A DNA stretch of 39,717 nucleotides from a virus, in the IMG/VR virus record IMGVR_UViG_3300006802_000208, positions 1 through 39,717 of that record. One strand, written 5' to 3'. Positions 2,272 through 22,481 of the stretch are shown here, piece by piece. Both the position numbers and the translations under genes were made by a program. Each line of letters opens with the position of its first letter. The first letter of the stretch is position 1. The notes below the pieces were generated by a model, which saw only the letters and a program-made list of their open reading frames with translations, had not been told where the DNA came from and did no database searches.

Positions 2272-2389
2272 TTCGGAATATAAATGGTATTCCATCTTGT
2301 TTCTAGCTGGTTCTGCATATCTTAGCGGATTGGAAGGATTGCTGATTGCCTCGGCAATATTGCTATTTTTATGGTTAGAACATGTTTGA
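2264..2389 (+). CDS. Tiny membrane protein (41 aa)
   Basis: It begins inside the previous tiny gene and ends inside the start of the next gene (ATG at 2382), so all three frames are chained by overlaps. The product starts MNNSEYKWYSILFLAG and carries two hydrophobic stretches (WYSILFLAGSAYLSG and GLLIASAILLFLWL) separated by a single Glu. It may be a hairpin-like or single-pass membrane peptide. Aromatic residues flank the hydrophobic segments, as expected at membrane interfaces. No family is recognised and no function is claimed. Confidence 0.5.
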   Translation: MNNSEYKWYSILFLAGSAYLSGLEGLLIASAILLFLWLEHV

Positions 2390-3503
2390 TGAAATAGAAA
2401 GATTTAAAAATAAAACTATCCAATATGACAATACAGTATTTAATTGGGATAATAGATTAGGAATAGAATTAGAACTTATTACATATATTTTGTCTCTTTT
2501 TGATAAAAATAAAAAATTATCTAAATTGGTATGGTATCATCTTACCGAGTTTGATTTTGATTTCGTAATGTGTAGAAATGAAAATGCAGCCGGTAATATG
2601 TTTAAATATTTAAGTGACAAAAATATAGAAATAGAAATTATCGGCACTGGTTCTGATTTCGTGGAACCTCTTCCTGTTAATAAGTGGGGATTCGTTCCTA
2701 AAATAACTTCTTTCAATTATGCCACATTTATTGCTTATAAGAATCATTTTCACTATCATAACTCAGTTATTAGAGACTATCTTATAAAAGTAAATAACAC
2801 ATTTTTAATTGATAATTGTGGTCTAAGACCCGATGTTACTGAATACAAACACTATTTTACTTCTTTAAATAACAAACCTCATCCTCATAGAATACAAACT
2901 ATGGATTTATTGGCCAAATACGATTTAATTGATAGTAACGCTATATCCTGGCATTCATATGACATACCTTTACAACATACAGATTTCCAAATTTGGAAAC
3001 CTAAAATGTTAAGACTTTCAGATGACTATCAATATCCATTTTCTTGTAACAATATACCTAATGAATATTTAGATTCTTTTGCTCAATTAATTACTGAAAC
3101 ATCTATGAGTTGTTTTTACATTTCGGAAAAAACATTATTACCACTTATGATAGGAAAACCTTTTATAGCATGTAACATTCAGGGTTTTCATAAAATCTTA
3201 AAAAGATTAGGTTTTGAACTATACGATGAAATCTTTGATTATTCGTTCGATGTAGAATCTGATCAAGAAAAAAGATTTGACATGGCTATACAAAACTTTG
3301 TAGAGTTATCTAAAATACCTAAAAAAGATTTAAAACATCTATATAACAAAGTAAGAGATAAGTTATTTTTTAATAGGACGAAGACACTAGCAATACCTAC
3401 TGACATAAATTCTTATCCAGATGAGATAAAAGAAGCAATTTATTATCAAATCAAAAATAACTTGCCTCTACTTCCGTTTGTAGATTCCGATATAAAATTG
3501 TAA
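2382..3503 (+). CDS. Glycosyltransferase-like protein, paralogue A
   Basis: 373 residues and extremely AT-rich. The C-terminal half carries FAQLITETSMSCFYISEKT, then LLPLMIGKPFIACNIQGFH, then GFELYDEIFDYSFD. This TEKT...GKPF...GF pattern resembles the donor-binding region of GT-B glycosyltransferases such as the GT10 fucosyltransferases, and recurs in phage proteins. The N-terminal half (strands, N(G)LRP and HRIQTMDLLAKY) is shared with the next two genes. It probably transfers a sugar onto a surface glycan, lipid or phage component; the acceptor is unknown. It shares blocks of 87, 92 and 98 identical bases with paralogue B. It overlaps the end of the previous tiny gene by eight bases. Confidence 0.65.
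   Translation: MFDEIERFKNKTIQYDNTVFNWDNRLGIELELITYILSLFDKNKKLSKLVWYHLTEFDFDFVMCRNENAAGNMFKYLSDKNIEIEIIGTGSDFVEPLPVNKWGFVPKITSFNYATFIAYKNHFHYHNSVIRDYLIKVNNTFLIDNCGLRPDVTEYKHYFTSLNNKPHPHRIQTMDLLAKYDLIDSNAISWHSYDIPLQHTDFQIWKPKMLRLSDDYQYPFSCNNIPNEYLDSFAQLITETSMSCFYISEKTLLPLMIGKPFIACNIQGFHKILKRLGFELYDEIFDYSFDVESDQEKRFDMAIQNFVELSKIPKKDLKHLYNKVRDKLFFNRTKTLAIPTDINSYPDEIKEAIYYQIKNNLPLLPFVDSDIKL
3132..3485 (+). repeat. Near-identical 3' blocks shared with 4336-4689 (gene conversion or duplication)
   Basis: Three stretches are identical by direct comparison: 3132-3218 with 4336-4422 (87 bases), 3270-3361 with 4474-4565 (92 bases), and 3388-3485 with 4592-4689 (98 bases). The sequences between them differ clearly. 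The alternation of perfect and diverged blocks points to recent gene conversion between paralogues A and B. Confidence 0.9.
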
Positions 3504-3523
3504 GAGTGGATACAAATCAATTC

Positions 3524-3550
3524 AAGAGAGGAACTAAATAAAAATTTATA
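3524..3550 (+). repeat. 27-base exact repeat, relic of a gene end (copy 1)
   Basis: Identical to 5803-5829, where it encodes the last residues REELNKNL of paralogue C. Here it lies between paralogues A and B. In the same frame it still reads SREELNKNLY before a TGA, so it looks like the leftover 3' end of a C-type gene. It also contains ACTAAATA (3534-3541), a possible late promoter for the gene at 3559. Confidence 0.85.
3534..3541 (+). promoter_or_regulatory. Possible late promoter ACTAAATA
   Basis: A 6 of 8 match to TATAAATA. The predicted start is near 3547, 12 bases before the ATG at 3559. No Shine-Dalgarno sequence is visible in between. It is a weak match in very AT-rich DNA. Confidence 0.3.
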
Positions 3551-3558
3551 TTGATATT

Positions 3559-4707
3559 ATGATTAATGAAATAGAAAAAAATAAAAATAAAATTTTTCAG
3601 TATGACAACACAGTACTTACTTGGGAGACAGATTTTGGGGAATATCCAAATAACCCCAATATAGAAAATATTAAATATATTTTATCTCTTTTTGATAAAA
3701 ATAAAAAATTATCGAAATTTTCATGGTTATTACTTAACGAATTTGACTTAGAAAATTTCGCTCTTTATACAAAACCTATTATCGAAGCGATCAAATATTT
3801 GTATAATAAAAAAATAGAGATTGAAATTATTACTTGTGGTTCTGATTATATAGTGCCTTTTAATGATTGGGGTTTTACTCCTAAAATAACTTATTTTAAT
3901 TATTGCATTTTTGTAACATATTGTAATTTTTTTTCAATAATATATCCAGAATTTCACATTACTGAACCACAAAATCTCAGAGATTGTTTGTTGAGTGACA
4001 ACTCTTTTTTAATAGATAACTGTGGTCTAAGACCTGGCATTACCGAATATAAACATTACTTTACTTCTTTAAATAACAGACCTCGTCCTCATAGAATACA
4101 AACTATGGATTTATTGGCCAAATACGATTTAATTGACGGTAATGCTATATCTTTCCTTGCGGAAGGTAGTAGCTTGAAAACTTTAAATTTTAGTATTTGG
4201 AAACCTAAAATTTTAAAACTTTCCGATGGTTATAAATATCCATCCGCTGTCTCTTTCACGGGAAACGAATATTTAGATTCTTTTGCTCAATTAATTACTG
4301 AAACAACTGATCAATGTTTTTTCCTCACAGAAAAGACATTATTACCACTTATGATAGGAAAACCTTTTATAGCATGTAACATTCAGGGTTTTCATAAAAT
4401 CTTAAAAAGATTAGGTTTTGAATTGTATGATGAGATTTTTGACTACTCGTTTGACTCAGAACCAGATCAAACGAAAAGATTTGACATGGCTATACAAAAC
4501 TTTGTAGAGTTATCTAAAATACCTAAAAAAGATTTAAAACATCTATATAACAAAGTAAGAGATAAACTGCTTTTTAACAGAATGAAAACATTAGCAATAC
4601 CTACTGACATAAATTCTTATCCAGATGAGATAAAAGAAGCAATTTATTATCAAATCAAAAATAACTTGCCTCTACTTCCGTTTGTAGATCACGATATAAA
4701 ACTATAA
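3559..4707 (+). CDS. Glycosyltransferase-like protein, paralogue B
   Basis: 382 residues, closely related to its neighbours. It has the same N-terminal pattern (IFQYDNTVLTWE, ILSLFDKNKKLSKFSW), the central LRP...HYFTSLNNRPRPHRIQ segment, and the GT-B-like C-terminal donor region with FFLTEKTLLPLMIGKPF and GFELYDEIFDYSFD. It is a mosaic at the DNA level. Most of its 3' third matches paralogue A exactly, but 4450-4484 is identical to 5534-5568 of paralogue C and unlike A at that place. The likely role is a sugar transferase with a variable acceptor- or donor-recognition part (residues about 60-130 and 195-230 differ most). No Shine-Dalgarno sequence is evident. The acceptor is not deducible. 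Confidence 0.65.
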   Translation: MINEIEKNKNKIFQYDNTVLTWETDFGEYPNNPNIENIKYILSLFDKNKKLSKFSWLLLNEFDLENFALYTKPIIEAIKYLYNKKIEIEIITCGSDYIVPFNDWGFTPKITYFNYCIFVTYCNFFSIIYPEFHITEPQNLRDCLLSDNSFLIDNCGLRPGITEYKHYFTSLNNRPRPHRIQTMDLLAKYDLIDGNAISFLAEGSSLKTLNFSIWKPKILKLSDGYKYPSAVSFTGNEYLDSFAQLITETTDQCFFLTEKTLLPLMIGKPFIACNIQGFHKILKRLGFELYDEIFDYSFDSEPDQTKRFDMAIQNFVELSKIPKKDLKHLYNKVRDKLLFNRMKTLAIPTDINSYPDEIKEAIYYQIKNNLPLLPFVDHDIKL

Positions 4708-4710
4708 ATA
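4703..4710 (+). promoter_or_regulatory. T4-like late promoter TATAAATA (perfect)
   Basis: A perfect match to the T4 late octamer, overlapping the end of paralogue B. The predicted start is 4716, one base from the A of the ATG at 4715, so the transcript would be essentially leaderless. Confidence 0.65.
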
Positions 4711-4714
4711 CGGT

Positions 4715-5830
4715 ATGCAAATAAATCAATATAGTGAATATTCAAAAATAGCAGTGCTTAACATATGGAAACGCGGTGGTGACGGCCACGATGAAGATGA
4801 GATTTTTCGATTATTAGATAGTGGGAAAGAAGTAAAAGAATACATATATGCGATGCCCCAAGAATGGGAATTACCACCCACCGAATATCTAGAAAAATTA
4901 AAAGAATACGCAGAAAAGTCAAAATTTAAAATGACTATAGTCACAGGTGGATTAGTAGACAGTTATGTAAAAAATCTATGGTTCTTGACCCCTGAAGAGA
5001 TAATGACCAAATATTCGTTTATCAAAGTAGTTTCTTATCCATGGTTTTGCCTTAAAAGAACTAGAGAACAATTGTTTTCTCAATCAATGAATAAAGAATA
5101 TGAAAATTACCCGTCACTCTTTTCTGATCAAGATTACAAATTTCATTTTATTACTATGAATCATGAACCTCATGTTTGGAGATGCGAGATGATGGACCTA
5201 CTAGCAAAATACAATTTATTAAATAATAATGCTGTTACTTGGAGATTGTTTAATTCTCGTTATAAATTTAAATACTGGGAACCCGAAACTAGAACTTTAT
5301 CAGATAATTTTTCAGAATTACATTGTACTGATGTATCTCTTCTACCACTAGAATATGATCAATCTTTTGCTCAATTAATTTCAGAAAGTACAGTTTATTG
5401 TACCTTTTTTACAGAAAAAACTACGAACGCACTGGCTAAAGGTAAACCATTCTTAGTTTGTGGTCCGGCTGGATACCATGAAAATTTGAGAAAATTTGGT
5501 TTTGAATTATATGATGAGATTTTTAACTATTCATTTGACTCAGAACCAGATCAAACGAAAAGATTTGAGAAATGCATTGCTAATCTTCTAAAATTGTCTA
5601 AGATACCAAAAGATCAATTGCATCTTTTACGCGATAAGATTAAGGACAAATTGATTCATAATCAACAACGTATAGAAAGTATTTATTTTGACACCAGTTT
5701 TATGTCAGAATATTCTTATAAAATTTGTGAACATTATGAAAAAACTGGGGAATGGTTAGATGATGGTTTATATTCAGAAAACTACGTATATATGAATAAG
5801 TTAAGAGAGGAACTAAATAAAAATTTATAG
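4715..5830 (+). CDS. Glycosyltransferase-like protein, paralogue C
   Basis: 371 residues. Its N-terminus differs from A and B (MQINQYSEYSKIAVLNIWKR), but it shares the middle (HFITMNHEPHVWRCEMMDLL) and the GT-B-like C-terminal donor region (FAQLISESTVYCTFFTEKTT, KGKPFLVCGPAGYHENLRKF, GFELYDEIFNYSFD). It most resembles the fourth paralogue at 21330 in having a longer C-terminal tail. A perfect late promoter abuts the ATG. Its stop codon (5828-5830) overlaps the predicted start of the tmRNA acceptor piece, and its last 27 bases recur at 3524. Function is inferred from family resemblance only. Confidence 0.65.
   Translation: MQINQYSEYSKIAVLNIWKRGGDGHDEDEIFRLLDSGKEVKEYIYAMPQEWELPPTEYLEKLKEYAEKSKFKMTIVTGGLVDSYVKNLWFLTPEEIMTKYSFIKVVSYPWFCLKRTREQLFSQSMNKEYENYPSLFSDQDYKFHFITMNHEPHVWRCEMMDLLAKYNLLNNNAVTWRLFNSRYKFKYWEPETRTLSDNFSELHCTDVSLLPLEYDQSFAQLISESTVYCTFFTEKTTNALAKGKPFLVCGPAGYHENLRKFGFELYDEIFNYSFDSEPDQTKRFEKCIANLLKLSKIPKDQLHLLRDKIKDKLIHNQQRIESIYFDTSFMSEYSYKICEHYEKTGEWLDDGLYSENYVYMNKLREELNKNL
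5803..5829 (+). repeat. 27-base exact repeat (copy 2), 3' end of paralogue C
   Basis: Identical to 3524-3550. It contains ACTAAATA at 5812-5819, a possible late promoter; its predicted start near 5825 would fall just before the first paired base of the tmRNA acceptor piece (5829). Confidence 0.85.
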
Positions 5831-6063
5831 TGGTATGAAGCGAAATGAAGGTGCTGCGGACTCGGGTTCAATTCCCGACATCTCCACCATCCGCGGGGAT
5901 GCACTGGCTTCGACGGGGCAAGATAGTTAAGCAGACCACTGGACAGGCGACTGACCTAATCAGCGCAAAACTAGTAAATGCAAACGATGACATTTACAAT
6001 GAGGATCTTCCGCTAGCAGCGTAAGACTCACGGGGTCAGAACAACCTTGTTACTCAACTGTTC
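5829..6063 (+). ncRNA. ssrA: Circularly permuted tmRNA (two-piece, ssrA)
   Basis: The acceptor part comes first. TCGGG-TTCAATT-CCCGA is a T-arm with 5-base stem and 7-base loop, followed by CATCTCC-A-CCA ending at 5889. After a 5-base spacer (5890-5894) comes GGGGATG (5895-5901), which pairs with CATCTCC over 7 bp including the G3-U70 wobble that marks alanine-tRNA-like ends. Then come the D-like loop (GGCTTCGACGGGG), a possible pseudoknot (AGG/CCT with CTGA/TCAG at about 5946-5964) and the AAAACTAGTAAAT approach to the resume codon. The tag reads ANDDIYNEDLPLAA (5980-6021) and ends at TAA (6022-6024). AGTGGT (5829-5834) can pair with ACCACT (5935-5940) as part of helix P2. Function: rescue of stalled ribosomes with SmpB. 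Both outer ends are approximate. Confidence 0.9.
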
Positions 6064-6093
6064 ATGGCAGGAACTTAGGTTCCTGCCATTTTT
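6064..6093 (+). terminator. Rho-independent terminator after the tmRNA
   Basis: An 11-bp perfect stem (6064-6074 with 6079-6089, ATGGCAGGAAC/GTTCCTGCCAT) with a 4-base loop TTAG and a run of T continuing to 6093. It ends tmRNA transcription before the next gene. Confidence 0.9.
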
Positions 6094-6115
6094 AATTACA
6101 TATTAAAGTATTTCA

Positions 6116-6128: not shown

Positions 6129-6602
6129 ATGAATAAAGTTGTTTATATAGATAAGTATCCAGATTTTAAAGTGGATCTTGAAAAATTACTGAATGAATTT
6201 AATAAAGCAGAATTAACAGCATCCCGCCACCATAGTAGTCATGTGTTAGTACAACGAAAATTTCATATATTGAAGTCTAATGGAGAATACACCGATAACT
6301 TAGATAGATTTCAGTACACATTAGAAATTGGTAAAAAGTTAGCAGAAACACTGGATTATAATAGCATATGTTACAGAAGTATAGAACCTAATACTTGCTA
6401 TAATTGGCATGTAGATTCAGGTAAAATATGCTATCATATACCTTTAATCACTAATCCAGGATCCTGGTTTGTATACGAGAATCGTTCATTTTACATGCCC
6501 GCTGATGGATCTATATACGTAGTCAACAATTCAAGACCTCACACCTTTGCTAATGCTGGAAAAACTCCTAGAGTGCATCTTACGTTTGAGATTTTAGAGT
6601 AA
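6129..6602 (+). CDS. Aspartyl/asparaginyl hydroxylase-like 2-oxoglutarate/Fe(II) dioxygenase
   Basis: 157 residues. The C-terminal half has the double-stranded beta-helix iron site: HxD as His94-Val-Asp96 (NWHVDSG), distal His138 (SRPHTFANAG) and Arg148 (TPRVHLTFE), a likely 2-oxoglutarate ligand. The HxD...H...R order and the NNSRPHTFAN segment fit the aspartyl/asparaginyl beta-hydroxylase group. The reaction would be oxidative hydroxylation of a protein or small-molecule side chain using O2 and 2-oxoglutarate; the target is unknown. The gene starts 36 bases after the tmRNA terminator with its own late-type promoter. A relative that seems to have lost the iron site lies at 23371. Confidence 0.75.
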   Translation: MNKVVYIDKYPDFKVDLEKLLNEFNKAELTASRHHSSHVLVQRKFHILKSNGEYTDNLDRFQYTLEIGKKLAETLDYNSICYRSIEPNTCYNWHVDSGKICYHIPLITNPGSWFVYENRSFYMPADGSIYVVNNSRPHTFANAGKTPRVHLTFEILE

Positions 6603-10607: not shown

Positions 10608-13600
10608 ATGAGAATTACGTTAGACGGTGGAGTAACTATTACAGGATCGATATCTTTAAATAGATTTATACAGCCGCCTTTTTCTGCTACGTTCGATACT
10701 TCGGTTTATTTAATTCCAGATACTGTAGATAATGAAGCGGTCGCTTCCGGAATATTAGGTGCTTCCACAGATGCAGAACCACAAAAATCTTTGTTTGCAA
10801 CTACTACGATAGATGGAAGACCATTAGGTGATATAGACAACAACGGTGACGTAAATTCATTTGATGCTGCTTTGTATCAGCAATATTATGTACTTGGTAG
10901 CACTACTTATGCAGATTATATAGAAAATGTATTACATCCATATTTGTTGGAAAACTCAACAACTTATTCAGATTACGTTTACAGAAGTGATCCCACACAA
11001 TATGCTGAAATTTATCTTTATTCAGGCAGTACTACAGAATATATAGACGCTATTATAGATTGGGGAGATGGAAACGCTACTATTATTTCCCCAGAATTAC
11101 AAGATTCTGAAGGGTACTTTTATCATGAATACAGCACCTCAGGCACATATGAAGTAACGATAACAGGTCTTGTCGGTTATCAATTAGGTATAGCAAGTCA
11201 GCCAGCCCTAACGAGTATTGGTGATTTTGGCGATCTTGATTTACAAACCGCGCAGTTCACTAATTGTGATAATTTAACAAGCATACCTGCATATATACCT
11301 AACACATTTACTTCTATGAGTTTGATGTTCGCGGGTTGTTCTAACTTGAATGATCCAAATATAAGATTGTGGGACACTAAAAATATTCAGTTTTTAGTTC
11401 AGACGTTTGATTCTTGTGATTCTTTTAATATAAATTTGTCTACTTGGAATACGTCAAATGTTACAAGTATGTTTAAAACGTTTGCTAATGCTACATCTTT
11501 CAACAATAATATTTCTACATGGAATACTGCTAACGTAGTTAACGCTGCACAAATGTTTGACAACGCTGCGTCTTTCAATCAAAATCTTAATAGTTGGGAT
11601 GTATCTAAAGTTCCTAGTCTTTATAGGATGTTTGCTAATAGTGCTTTTAACGGTAATATCATAGCTTGGGATACTTCTAATGTCTCTAACTTACAGCAGA
11701 CATTCCAATATTGCACTTCGTTCAATCAACCGATAGGTAACTGGAACACTTCTAAAGTTACTACCATGAATAATACTTTTGCTAATTGTTCTAGTTTCAA
11801 TGGTAACATTGAAAACTGGAACACTAGCAACGTTACTACTTTCGCATATACATTTAGTAACGCAACTAATTTTACAACTAACTTGCATTCTTGGAATACT
11901 ATAGCAACTAGTAATTTCGTGGGAATGTTCAATAACGTGTTATCATATAATAGTGACTTAGGTAATTGGTATACTGACAGATATCCAGGCAACACAGAAC
12001 CAACTAATTTCTCTACTAATGCATCTGGTTGGATTCAACCTAAGCCACCCTGGACTGCGGGAGGATTATTAATAGATTTCTCACCTGCTACTGCTCCGCA
12101 GACATTTAGTTTTACTGCTACATCATCAAATGGCTGGGTGAACTGGGGAGATGGTAGTTCTTCGACATTTACTTCAAGTGCATCTCATTCTTATAGTTCA
12201 ACAGGAAATGTTCAGATACAGATAAAGGGTGTCTTACCAACGTTTGATACGGGTACTAATTCAGTAAATCAATATATCTATGCTATAGATTCTTTTGGTA
12301 ATATGGGTGTAACTAACATTTATCTAGGTAACTGTTCTAATCTAACAAGTGTGCCTAATTATTTTCCTGGCAGCATAAGAGCGTTTAGATTTGGTAGGAC
12401 TACAGGAACATGCCCCATTAATGATGCTAACATAGTAGAGTGGGATGTAAGCAATGTAAACAACATGAGCAACATGTTCTTTAATTGTACTTCATTCAAT
12501 CAACCAATCGGCAACTGGAATACATCTAACGTTTTAACTATGTCTAATATATTCCAAGGTGCTACATCTTTTAATTCAGATATCACTAACTGGGACGTTA
12601 GCAATGTAGGAAGTTTTAATAATGCATTTAGAGATGCTACTTCATTCAATCAAGATATAGGAAATTGGGAAGTAGGACAAGCAGGTAATATGTCATTCAT
12701 GTTTGAGAACGCATCTGCTTTCAATCAAGATTTAAGTGATTGGTGTGTTATTAACTTCACTTCAGAGCCCGGCAACTTTAGTTATAATACGCCCGGTTGG
12801 GTCGCTTCTAAACCAAATTGGGGTACTTGTTCTTTAATACCAGCTAATGCTATGATAGTACAATACAATAGTTCTTCAACAGGTAACACTACTCTAGCAC
12901 GGTTTGATGGTGCTACTGATATAAGTTTATCTTTGTTGAATGGTGAAACATTTACTATCGATGATCCAAGTTTAACATCTCAAACTTTATCTAAAGCCTA
13001 TCTAGAAAGTTCTACAAAAACATTTTATGTTACTGGTAATTCTGAATCTATGAGTACAGGTAACCGCACTATACGAGTCATGCAATGGGGAGATATAGAA
13101 TTAAGAAATTATCGTTGCTCTACTTCAATAAACAGTTTCTTTACGGAGATACCAGACACGTTGCCTGCTACTTTTAATAACGGTTATCAAATGTTATCTG
13201 GTGCTACTAATTTTACTGATGGCAATGTCGCTAACTGGAATGTAAGCAATATCACTAATATGTCTAGTATGTTCGCAGATACTGATATAGATTCTTTCTT
13301 AGATTTATCTGGATGGGATATGAGTAATGTTACAGATACTTCTTATATGTTTGGTGGTTGTAATTTATTTGACAGCGACATAAGTATGTGGAACACCGGT
13401 AATGTTGCTAATATGAGAGGCATGTTTTATGCTGCTACAATTTTTAATCAACCTATAGGAACATGGGACGTTAGCAAAGTTACTGATATGTCAAGTATGT
13501 TCATGCTCACTAAAAATTTCCAGCAAGATATAAACGATTGGGACGTATCCAATGTCACTAATTTCGCAAATATGTTCTATGGAACTGCGAACACTGGCCC

Positions 13601-14834
13601 CACTTCGGTCAATGGATTTACTTCTAATTTGGCTAATTGGAATACTTCAAATGCTACTAACATGTCTAATATGTTCTACCAGGCTAACAATTTCAGCGGA
13701 AATGTAGAAACATGGGATGTTAGCAACGTTGCCAACATGTATAGAATGTTTGGTTATGCTAGAAAAGCCACAGACTTAGTTCTTGATAATTGGGATGTGA
13801 GTAAAGTAGCAAATATGCAAGGTATGTTCTATGATGCTGCTGGAGCAGATAGTAACTTAGATTTGTCTAATTGGAATACTTCTAACGTAACAAATACTAG
13901 AGAGATGTTTTTTGGTTGTATAAATTTTGATAGTAATATAGCATCATGGGACGTTAGTAAAGTTACTGACATGACCGGGATGTTTTATGTAGCACAAAGT
14001 TTCAATCAACCTATAGGTAACTGGAATACTTCTAATGCGATATATGGCATGAGCAGAATGTTTGAACTAGCCTCATCTTTCAATCAACCATTAAAGTATT
14101 GGGATGTTTCTAACGTTGATCCTAACTTAGGCGGTTTAGATGATATGTTTAACGGTGCTTCATCGTATAATCAAGACCTCAGTAGATGGTGTGTATCTCA
14201 ATTCGCATCTGAACCTTCAGGTTTCTCTACGGGTGCTGTGGCTTGGACAGAACCTAAACCTGTATGGGGTACTTGCCCACAACCAGACATGTATCTAACT
14301 TATAACTTCCCGCTACCTTCAGGTGAGGTAGAATTAACTGTAGAAGGCAATGTTGATCTTATCGTGTATTGGGGTGATGGCAGTGTAGATACTTACAATA
14401 CTAATACAGTTGCTACCCACACATACTCTTCAGCAGGTTCTTATACAGTAACTCTAGAAGGAAGCGTAGAAAAATTAGCAGCAGAGAATGTGCATTTAAC
14501 AGGTGTTACTTCGTTTGGTGATCTTGGCTTACTTGATCTATCATACGCATTCGCTAACAGTCCAGCCTTAACTGTCATGGCTAGCAATTTCCCAACTACT
14601 GTTACTAATCTAAATTCAACTTTCTTGAATTCAGGTAGCATCAATGACAGCAATATAGCATTGTGGGATGTTGGAAATGTTACAGACATGACTGCGCTAT
14701 TCAATGATGCTACGGTATTCAATCAAGATTTGTCAAACTGGTGTGTAACTAACATAGTAGCAGAACCAACTGACTTCGCTACAGGATCTAGTCTATCTCT
14801 AGCCAACTATCCTGTCTGGGGAACTTGTCCATAA
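10608..14834 (+). CDS. Giant DUF285 (BspA-like) repeat adhesin or tail fibre
   Basis: 1408 residues. An N-terminal virion-type region is followed by a dockerin-like Ca-binding loop (GDIDNNGDVNSFDAALYQQY, from about residue 74). There are three PKD-like segments built around WGDG (IDWGDGNATI, VNWGDGSSST, VYWGDGSVDT). Each leads into arrays of about 25-residue DUF285 repeats of the type MFxxATSFNQPIGNWNTSNV, a few dozen in total. DUF285/BspA-like leucine-rich repeats form solenoids in bacterial surface adhesins. In a phage this most likely is a long receptor-binding fibre, or less likely a head decoration. The array units end in WC(V)...EPxxFS...W...KPxWGTC, a Cys-bearing cap repeated four times. 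No signal peptide is present. It starts two bases after the preceding stop, with AAGGA upstream. Confidence 0.8.
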   Translation: MRITLDGGVTITGSISLNRFIQPPFSATFDTSVYLIPDTVDNEAVASGILGASTDAEPQKSLFATTTIDGRPLGDIDNNGDVNSFDAALYQQYYVLGSTTYADYIENVLHPYLLENSTTYSDYVYRSDPTQYAEIYLYSGSTTEYIDAIIDWGDGNATIISPELQDSEGYFYHEYSTSGTYEVTITGLVGYQLGIASQPALTSIGDFGDLDLQTAQFTNCDNLTSIPAYIPNTFTSMSLMFAGCSNLNDPNIRLWDTKNIQFLVQTFDSCDSFNINLSTWNTSNVTSMFKTFANATSFNNNISTWNTANVVNAAQMFDNAASFNQNLNSWDVSKVPSLYRMFANSAFNGNIIAWDTSNVSNLQQTFQYCTSFNQPIGNWNTSKVTTMNNTFANCSSFNGNIENWNTSNVTTFAYTFSNATNFTTNLHSWNTIATSNFVGMFNNVLSYNSDLGNWYTDRYPGNTEPTNFSTNASGWIQPKPPWTAGGLLIDFSPATAPQTFSFTATSSNGWVNWGDGSSSTFTSSASHSYSSTGNVQIQIKGVLPTFDTGTNSVNQYIYAIDSFGNMGVTNIYLGNCSNLTSVPNYFPGSIRAFRFGRTTGTCPINDANIVEWDVSNVNNMSNMFFNCTSFNQPIGNWNTSNVLTMSNIFQGATSFNSDITNWDVSNVGSFNNAFRDATSFNQDIGNWEVGQAGNMSFMFENASAFNQDLSDWCVINFTSEPGNFSYNTPGWVASKPNWGTCSLIPANAMIVQYNSSSTGNTTLARFDGATDISLSLLNGETFTIDDPSLTSQTLSKAYLESSTKTFYVTGNSESMSTGNRTIRVMQWGDIELRNYRCSTSINSFFTEIPDTLPATFNNGYQMLSGATNFTDGNVANWNVSNITNMSSMFADTDIDSFLDLSGWDMSNVTDTSYMFGGCNLFDSDISMWNTGNVANMRGMFYAATIFNQPIGTWDVSKVTDMSSMFMLTKNFQQDINDWDVSNVTNFANMFYGTANTGPTSVNGFTSNLANWNTSNATNMSNMFYQANNFSGNVETWDVSNVANMYRMFGYARKATDLVLDNWDVSKVANMQGMFYDAAGADSNLDLSNWNTSNVTNTREMFFGCINFDSNIASWDVSKVTDMTGMFYVAQSFNQPIGNWNTSNAIYGMSRMFELASSFNQPLKYWDVSNVDPNLGGLDDMFNGASSYNQDLSRWCVSQFASEPSGFSTGAVAWTEPKPVWGTCPQPDMYLTYNFPLPSGEVELTVEGNVDLIVYWGDGSVDTYNTNTVATHTYSSAGSYTVTLEGSVEKLAAENVHLTGVTSFGDLGLLDLSYAFANSPALTVMASNFPTTVTNLNSTFLNSGSINDSNIALWDVGNVTDMTALFNDATVFNQDLSNWCVTNIVAEPTDFATGSSLSLANYPVWGTCP

Positions 14835-21329: not shown

Positions 21330-22481
21330 ATGTACTATTATACTAGTCATTGGAAACCACATATATATCGTAACTCAACACTTGATGGTGTTTTGCTGGA
21401 CGATATAAGTGACAAAAGAATGAGAGTTCTTAACTACCATGAAAAAAATCTCGATGACATTGCTATTGTTAATTTAGTACAAGAGCATTCAACAAATATA
21501 ACAAATCCATCTTATAGTCAGACTGAAATAAATTTAAGATCAAATGTTGATTTTTTTGTGAGTAAAGGTAACAAAATTATTTTTATTATAGAACGCAACA
21601 AAGAAGATGCTAAAATCTTAGCCCAAGATTATATATCTACATTTAAAAATAAAATTATAGTATTCAATACCAGAGCGTTTAACTTTAACTATATAGTAGC
21701 ATCTGAACAAGAAGAAAGAACAAGATATTTTTCTTTTCAAGAAAACTTCAGTAACCGTGATCCACTAAACAAACACTTTAGACATCTATTTGTATGTATT
21801 AATAGAATGGTCAAGCATCATAGAATAGTTGCTCTAGATGTTTTGCAACAAAAGGGAATATTTAATTTAGGTAAAACATCTTTTTCGGGTAGAAACTACT
21901 CAAATCTGGAATATGATGAATCATTATGTAATAGTTTGCAACATCTTTGTACACATTGGAAAATAGTACCATTGCCTCGCGTAAATTTAGAAGACTACGA
22001 TGATTCTTGGATAGATTTGGTGTCAGAAACTCATGAATACGCTGAAAACTATGAATGGATAACAGAGAAGACAGTTAGAGCATTTCTTTATGGAAAACCT
22101 TTTTTAATATTTGGTCCTAAAGGTATACATAAAAAATTGATTACTGATGGATTTGAGATGTTCGAAGAATTATTTGACTATTCTTTTGATATCGAAGACG
22201 ATACTAGAAAAAGATATGAAATGTTAGTAGACAACATAGTTGGATTAAAAGATACTGATTATGAAACTAGGAAAAAATTAACTTCGAAAATTTATGACAA
22301 ATTGTTGCACAATCAAAGATTAGCAATTGACATTATTCAAAATTATAAAAATTATACTTATATGGTAGATAAAAGCAAAAATTTTAATGATTCTGACATA
22401 CAAGAATCTTTAGATATAACTAATCATGTATTAGATAATATTATATTCATAGATCCGAACAAACAGTTTCCAAAAGATTAG
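21330..22481 (+). CDS. Glycosyltransferase-like protein, paralogue D
   Basis: 383 residues, AT-rich, beginning directly after the previous stop. The C-terminal donor-like region YEWITEKTVRAFLYGKPFLI, FGPKGIHKKLITDGFEMFEE and LFDYSFDIEDDTRKRYEML matches paralogues A-C at 2382-5830. The N-terminal part is different (MYYYTSHWKPHIYRNST). It stands alone here, about 15 kb from the cluster, among a run that also holds a sugar epimerase and aminotransferase. It probably transfers a nucleotide-activated sugar, possibly one made by the genes at 24127 and 25070. The identity of donor and acceptor is unknown. Confidence 0.65.
   Translation: MYYYTSHWKPHIYRNSTLDGVLLDDISDKRMRVLNYHEKNLDDIAIVNLVQEHSTNITNPSYSQTEINLRSNVDFFVSKGNKIIFIIERNKEDAKILAQDYISTFKNKIIVFNTRAFNFNYIVASEQEERTRYFSFQENFSNRDPLNKHFRHLFVCINRMVKHHRIVALDVLQQKGIFNLGKTSFSGRNYSNLEYDESLCNSLQHLCTHWKIVPLPRVNLEDYDDSWIDLVSETHEYAENYEWITEKTVRAFLYGKPFLIFGPKGIHKKLITDGFEMFEELFDYSFDIEDDTRKRYEMLVDNIVGLKDTDYETRKKLTSKIYDKLLHNQRLAIDIIQNYKNYTYMVDKSKNFNDSDIQESLDITNHVLDNIIFIDPNKQFPKD

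Follow-up and report, generated by a model that had tools for sequence, protein, structure and literature searches.

Two-piece tmRNAs encoded by marine and aquatic phages were reported in 2022 in the Methylophilales phage Melnitz and the Pelagibacter phage Mosig (PMC9004378). The tmRNA of Melnitz is, like the one described here, phage-encoded, permuted and in two pieces. It groups with alphaproteobacterial tmRNAs and has a predicted glutamine riboswitch (PMC9004378), whereas the present copy, of the beta type, has a spacer of 5 nt, and an Rfam scan revealed no riboswitch in the window, that is, the whole 39,717-nt stretch of viral DNA analysed (IMG/VR record IMGVR_UViG_3300006802_000208). The permuted tmRNA of Menderavirus, a Stenotrophomonas phage, is also of the beta type (92.1 bits versus 47.8 bits with the alpha model), and one tree places it close to the copy of the window (91/97, unstarred); its spacer is a 56-nt hairpin and its tag is reported as VAANDDSYTVRIAA, compared with 5 nt and ANDDIYNEDLPLAA in the window. 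The permuted tmRNA of Rhodocyclales (Accumulibacter, Dechloromonas) shares with the window's both the beta type and a very short spacer (3-6 nt, mostly 4), but these copies lie on bacterial contigs and their tags are mostly ANDERFALAA or ANDEQFAIAA, in contrast to the longer acidic phage tag. Neither a phage-borne two-piece tmRNA nor a tiny spacer is unprecedented, and the preliminary description of this DNA, made from the sequence alone, had overrated the novelty of the locus in view of the 2022 report (PMC9004378) and of the recurrence of 3-6-nt spacers in phages and Rhodocyclales.

The large T4-like phage of the window carries a circularly permuted tmRNA gene in which the two halves are swapped, as the preliminary description had proposed and as ARAGORN and, independently, two Rfam models now confirm. 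ARAGORN identified a permuted tmRNA (tmRNA*) at 5797-6115 on the + strand, with the tag ANDDIYNEDLPLAA. With cmscan, RF04321 (tmRNA_permuted) matched 5829-6024 over the full model (1-213) at 142.7 bits (cut-off 47, E 2.9e-28), and RF01850 (beta_tmRNA) matched 5778-6088 at 130.9 bits (cut-off 84, E 7.7e-40), the initial ~50 bases of the latter match being upstream flank of poor similarity. The alpha model gave only 49.9 bits, which assigns the gene to the beta type, and other models of the clan scored lower than the beta permuted model. Direct reading showed that the acceptor half lies 5' of the tag half with TCCGC as the sole separation. The features of the locus are as follows.

4715-5830, + strand: upstream gene, 371 aa, with no match in Pfam or PHROG; belongs to a set of four similar genes in the window
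5829-5889, + strand: acceptor (3'-terminal) piece with one side of the outer helix, T-arm, CATCTCC, A73 and CCA (RF04321 alignment, sequence, fold, covariation)
5829-5834 with 5935-5940, + strand: outer helix, AGTGGT with ACCACT (sequence, fold)
5862-5878, + strand: T-arm, with T-stem TCGGG 5862-5866 / CCCGA 5874-5878 (sequence)
5879-5885, + strand: 3' strand of the acceptor stem, CATCTCC (sequence)
5886 and 5887-5889, + strand: A73 and CCA (sequence)
5890-5894, + strand: intervening segment TCCGC, expected to be removed (sequence, acceptor-stem pairing)
5895-5901, + strand: 5' strand of the acceptor stem, GGGGATG, giving a 7-bp stem with G3-U70 (sequence)
5895-6063, + strand: coding (5'-terminal) piece with GGGGATG, CTGGCTTCGACGG D-arm-like region, outer helix, pseudoknot-like region, tag frame and downstream structured region (RF04321 and RF01850 alignments, fold)
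5980-6024, + strand: tag frame from the resume codon GCA to TAA, ANDDIYNEDLPLAA (ARAGORN, sequence)
6064-6089, + strand: terminator-like hairpin of 11 bp with a 4-nt loop, then a T-rich tail (pattern scan; perfect helix in the fold)
6129-6602, + strand: downstream gene of the Asp/Arg beta-hydroxylase family (PF05118)

The elements expected of a two-piece tmRNA are in place. The region 5879-5901 holds the alanine identity pair G3-U70, A73 and a correctly positioned CCA, and the tag frame has a resume codon, a hydrophobic end and a stop. The earlier reading of a 7-bp acceptor stem with G3-U70 is thus borne out, and so is that of an acceptor piece starting in a gene's stop codon: a TAG at 5828-5830 closes the upstream ORF, and the outer helix opens within this codon at 5829, a coordinate that is the start of the Rfam model and not a mapped mature 5' end. 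The MFE structure of 5829-6095 has a z of -3.29 against shuffles; it holds the outer helix, the T-arm and the acceptor stem, the last as a hairpin over ACCA+TCCGC. Comparison of 89 distinct permuted tmRNAs, of phage and bacterial origin, revealed compensatory states at the acceptor pairs 5-68 (GC, AT, CG, TA) and 6-67 (TA, CG, AT, GC), and likewise at the T-stem pairs 49-65 and 50-64; the pattern scans put no constraint on these pairs, while ARAGORN and the placement score still favour pairing. G3-U70 is kept in 88 of the 89, the lone exception being apparently misread by the automatic acceptor-stem placement. Most of the acceptor stem was prescribed by the search patterns, and invariance in it therefore carries little weight.

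Direct reading and a pattern scan detected no conventional 3' half and no second acceptor half or CCA after the tag, where the hairpin and T-rich tail are found instead. The preliminary description would have given way to the lack of a covariance match or to a conventional 3' end past the tag; the match is strong and no 3' half lies downstream. The transcript likely ends at the terminator-like hairpin, one such pattern being found against a shuffle mean of 1.0. Directly upstream of the tmRNA, sigma-70-like promoter sites do not exceed chance. The T4 late consensus TATAAATA is absent at the tmRNA, and a partial match, CTAAATA at 5813-5819, is not significant.

The contig carries T4-like genes for the large subunit of the terminase, a gp32-like SSB, a UvsX-like recombinase, a thymidylate synthase and virion structural proteins. 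Its terminase (TerL) is 82% identical to that of the contig holding the related tmRNA L087, and 51-52% identical to those of Sinorhizobium phage Phosso (469 kb) and Pseudomonas phage PA5oct (287 kb). By these sequence comparisons, Phosso and PA5oct are relatives of this T4-like phage. The four similar genes (~370-380 aa; 2382-5830 and 21330-22481) have a common motif like GFELYDEIFDYSFD and relatives in L087 and L088. Elsewhere in the window (10608-14834), a 1408-aa protein with many 'WDTSNVTNMSxMF'-like repeats, resembling BspA-type (DUF285) repeats, is possibly a phage adhesin.

Homologues of the downstream hydroxylase-like gene in L087, L088 and L089 directly follow a permuted tmRNA, as in the window. 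Phosso, which belongs to the same wider lineage by its terminase, has its permuted tmRNA elsewhere in the genome, outside this slot. That gene (L113, PV764938.1 349596-350198, minus strand) is unannotated, is of the alpha type and is missed by ARAGORN; its intervening segment of 410 nt contains inverted repeats, and its tag, by reading, is ANDNVSTKVALAA. The search used here found no permuted tmRNA in PA5oct. Another T4-like phage group also carries a permuted tmRNA. Spacers in the window's relatives measure 31 nt (L087/L088), 9 nt (L089) and 410 nt (Phosso), versus 5 nt in the window.

The relatives also differ from the window in tmRNA type. The copies of L089 (84.2 bits with the alpha and 39.9 with the beta model) and Phosso (108 and 25.5) are alpha-like and that of L087 is intermediate (58.7 and 76.7), whereas the trees place the window's copy with the beta group. 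A single clade made of the window, L087, L089 and Phosso was rejected (p = 0.023). An exchange of tmRNA type within a fixed genomic slot, alpha in L089 and beta in the window, is suggested but not proven, because joining the window to the alpha set was not rejected (p = 0.128) and L087 is intermediate; a clean alpha-to-beta swap is supported in part only.

To place the 5-nt spacer, we surveyed spacer lengths in viral and cellular genomes. Single-pattern scans of IMG/VR contigs gave 30 with 0-30 nt (20 of these with 4-6 nt), 18 with 31-61 nt and 52 with 62-92 nt; the pattern is biased to beta-like sequences with an encoded CCA, and the counts are therefore lower bounds. Spacers of 3-6 nt occur in ~20 IMG/VR contigs other than the window, and the isolated Stenotrophomonas phage BUCTxx99 has a spacer of 4 nt. 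Its permuted tmRNA (OR529408.1, L010:1472-1797) is unannotated and encodes the tag ANDDVYVVALAA. The same pattern run with spacers of up to 10 nt on 84,980 bacterial and archaeal species matched 35, mostly Rhodocyclales or relatives of Accumulibacter, with 3-6 nt. In a separate sample of 31 copies, drawn mostly across Pseudomonadota and with 3 from the order of Dechloromonas, the spacer measured 22-55 nt in 30 and 5 nt in one. Thus the spacer of the window is shorter than nearly all those sampled in bacteria, in agreement with its earlier description as minimal where others are usually longer; that it is unique to the window is rejected, since 3-6 nt recurs in phages and Rhodocyclales. Very short spacers are uncommon in bacteria, and common but not dominant in phages. 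We also observed in Dyella sp. AtDHG13 (L026) a standard tmRNA together with a permuted one, whose spacer is 5 nt and whose tag is GAKPIDANDNVYDQAIAA; a viral contig (L054) has the identical tag and spacer, and the permuted copy of Dyella is probably a prophage-borne second tmRNA.

Spacer length can change between close relatives. One clade of T4-like phage tmRNAs, on contigs with endolysin genes nearby and in one case a gp32-like SSB, mixes spacers of 4-6 nt and 44-52 nt, with at least 4 changes on the tree. An AU test that had not been planned beforehand rejected a single clade of the minimal-spacer tmRNAs in one T4-like group (p = 0.0004), a result to which exchange within the gene may contribute. 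Two copies with spacers of 4 nt (L047) and 51 nt (L086) encode the same tag, and some short spacers resemble the final bases of long ones (TCTAC versus ...TATCTAC), as expected from hairpin deletion. Recombination inside the tmRNA gene probably also happens, because L080 and L086 have identical spacers and different tags. The long spacers of L073, L079, L080 and L086 have in common a conserved stretch that resembles a hairpin (GCCCAYCACCTCTGC...GTACGTGGTGGC) and that close relatives with spacers of 4-6 nt lack. Across the phages examined, spacer length is evolutionarily free, from 4 to 410 nt, save for an apparent floor near 4 nt: the shortest spacer found anywhere is 3 nt, in one case, although 0-2 nt was also searched. 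We infer that this floor would be set by processing. More tentatively, phages may repeatedly shrink the spacer to a physical minimum of ~4 nt, at which the loop between CCA and G1 would be just long enough for RNase P. It is conceivable but rather doubtful that this would be an end state reached repeatedly, with a hard floor and a processing mode of its own.

The locus is very probably a functional beta-type circularly permuted ssrA gene of a large T4-like phage, whose product would be processed to two pieces and work with host SmpB in infection. This reading is favoured because G3-U70, A73 and the encoded CCA are intact and the tag frame is complete, ending in LAA and a stop; because of the covariation across the 89 relatives and the retention of a permuted tmRNA before the same gene in L087, L088 and L089; and because many Rhodocyclales genomes have very short spacers in what is presumably a working copy. 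Gene anatomy, covariation, conservation in related phages and spacer lability are observations; transcription, processing, charging and use in infection are what we infer. A single transcript would run from the acceptor half through TCCGC to the tag half and the terminator. Host RNase P would cut 5' of G1 (5895), and the 5-base tail left after this single cut would be trimmed back to the encoded CCA by 3' exonucleases, by analogy with known two-piece tmRNAs (PMC3985003, PMC11915505). The two RNAs, joined by the acceptor stem and the outer helix, would then act with host alanyl-tRNA synthetase, EF-Tu and SmpB during infection to free ribosomes that have stalled on broken mRNAs. The stalled proteins would receive the tag ANDDIYNEDLPLAA; its LAA end is similar to known proteolysis tags.

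The preliminary description had called for a search for SmpB. On the phage side this gave nothing: SmpB (PF01668) is absent from the contig, which is a fragment, and from 16 other phage records, relatives included, so that any function would rely on the SmpB of the host. Such RNAs have been proposed to help maintain the hijacked translation machinery and to promote the breakdown of host proteins (PMC9004378). It is plausible that the window's tmRNA would re-tag host proteins and rescue ribosomes; the idea that rescue would serve 'many leaderless or damaged mRNAs' of the phage finds no support for such mRNAs in our analysis.

The closed acceptor hairpin into which the precursor folds raises the question of whether the RNA is cut at all. 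It might be made and stay uncut, the 9-nt loop ACCATCCGC being too small to process, and tie up SmpB or ribosomes as a decoy, thereby blocking trans-translation in the host. Such an action has been proposed for the tag-less tmRNA-like RNA of mycobacteriophage DS6A, which is reported to be inhibitory (PMC4131195, PMC11915505). However, permuted tmRNAs with 3-6-nt spacers occur in more than 30 bacterial genomes, mostly of Rhodocyclales, the tag frame of the window is intact, unlike in DS6A, and the CCA and G3-U70 needed for charging are retained, which makes an uncut decoy improbable. Slightly less probable still is a non-functional passenger acquired from a host ssrA gene by recombination. The passage of ssrA fragments from hosts into prophages has been discussed (PMC9004378), and the beta type of the window's copy, in the slot where its relative L089 has an alpha copy, would fit such an origin; yet every functional element is intact, and L087, L088 and L089, although strongly diverged, all retain a complete tmRNA in this slot. 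That a tRNA or a one-piece tmRNA of the conventional kind was misread as permuted can be dismissed almost entirely, as nothing was found in favour of this, the tag is followed by a hairpin and T-rich tail and not by a second acceptor half or CCA, and the other models of the clan score below the beta permuted model, with only 49.9 bits for alpha.

In the reading that we prefer, a functional two-piece tmRNA gene, these data extend the two-piece tmRNAs known from phages to a large T4-like lineage, whose copy is of the beta type and has a recurrent minimal spacer. The apparent floor in spacer length sets a limit, open to testing, on the way in which RNase P and the enzymes that trim to CCA deal with a closed acceptor loop. 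Host changes of such phages may be easier to trace where a single genomic slot holds tmRNAs of different types.
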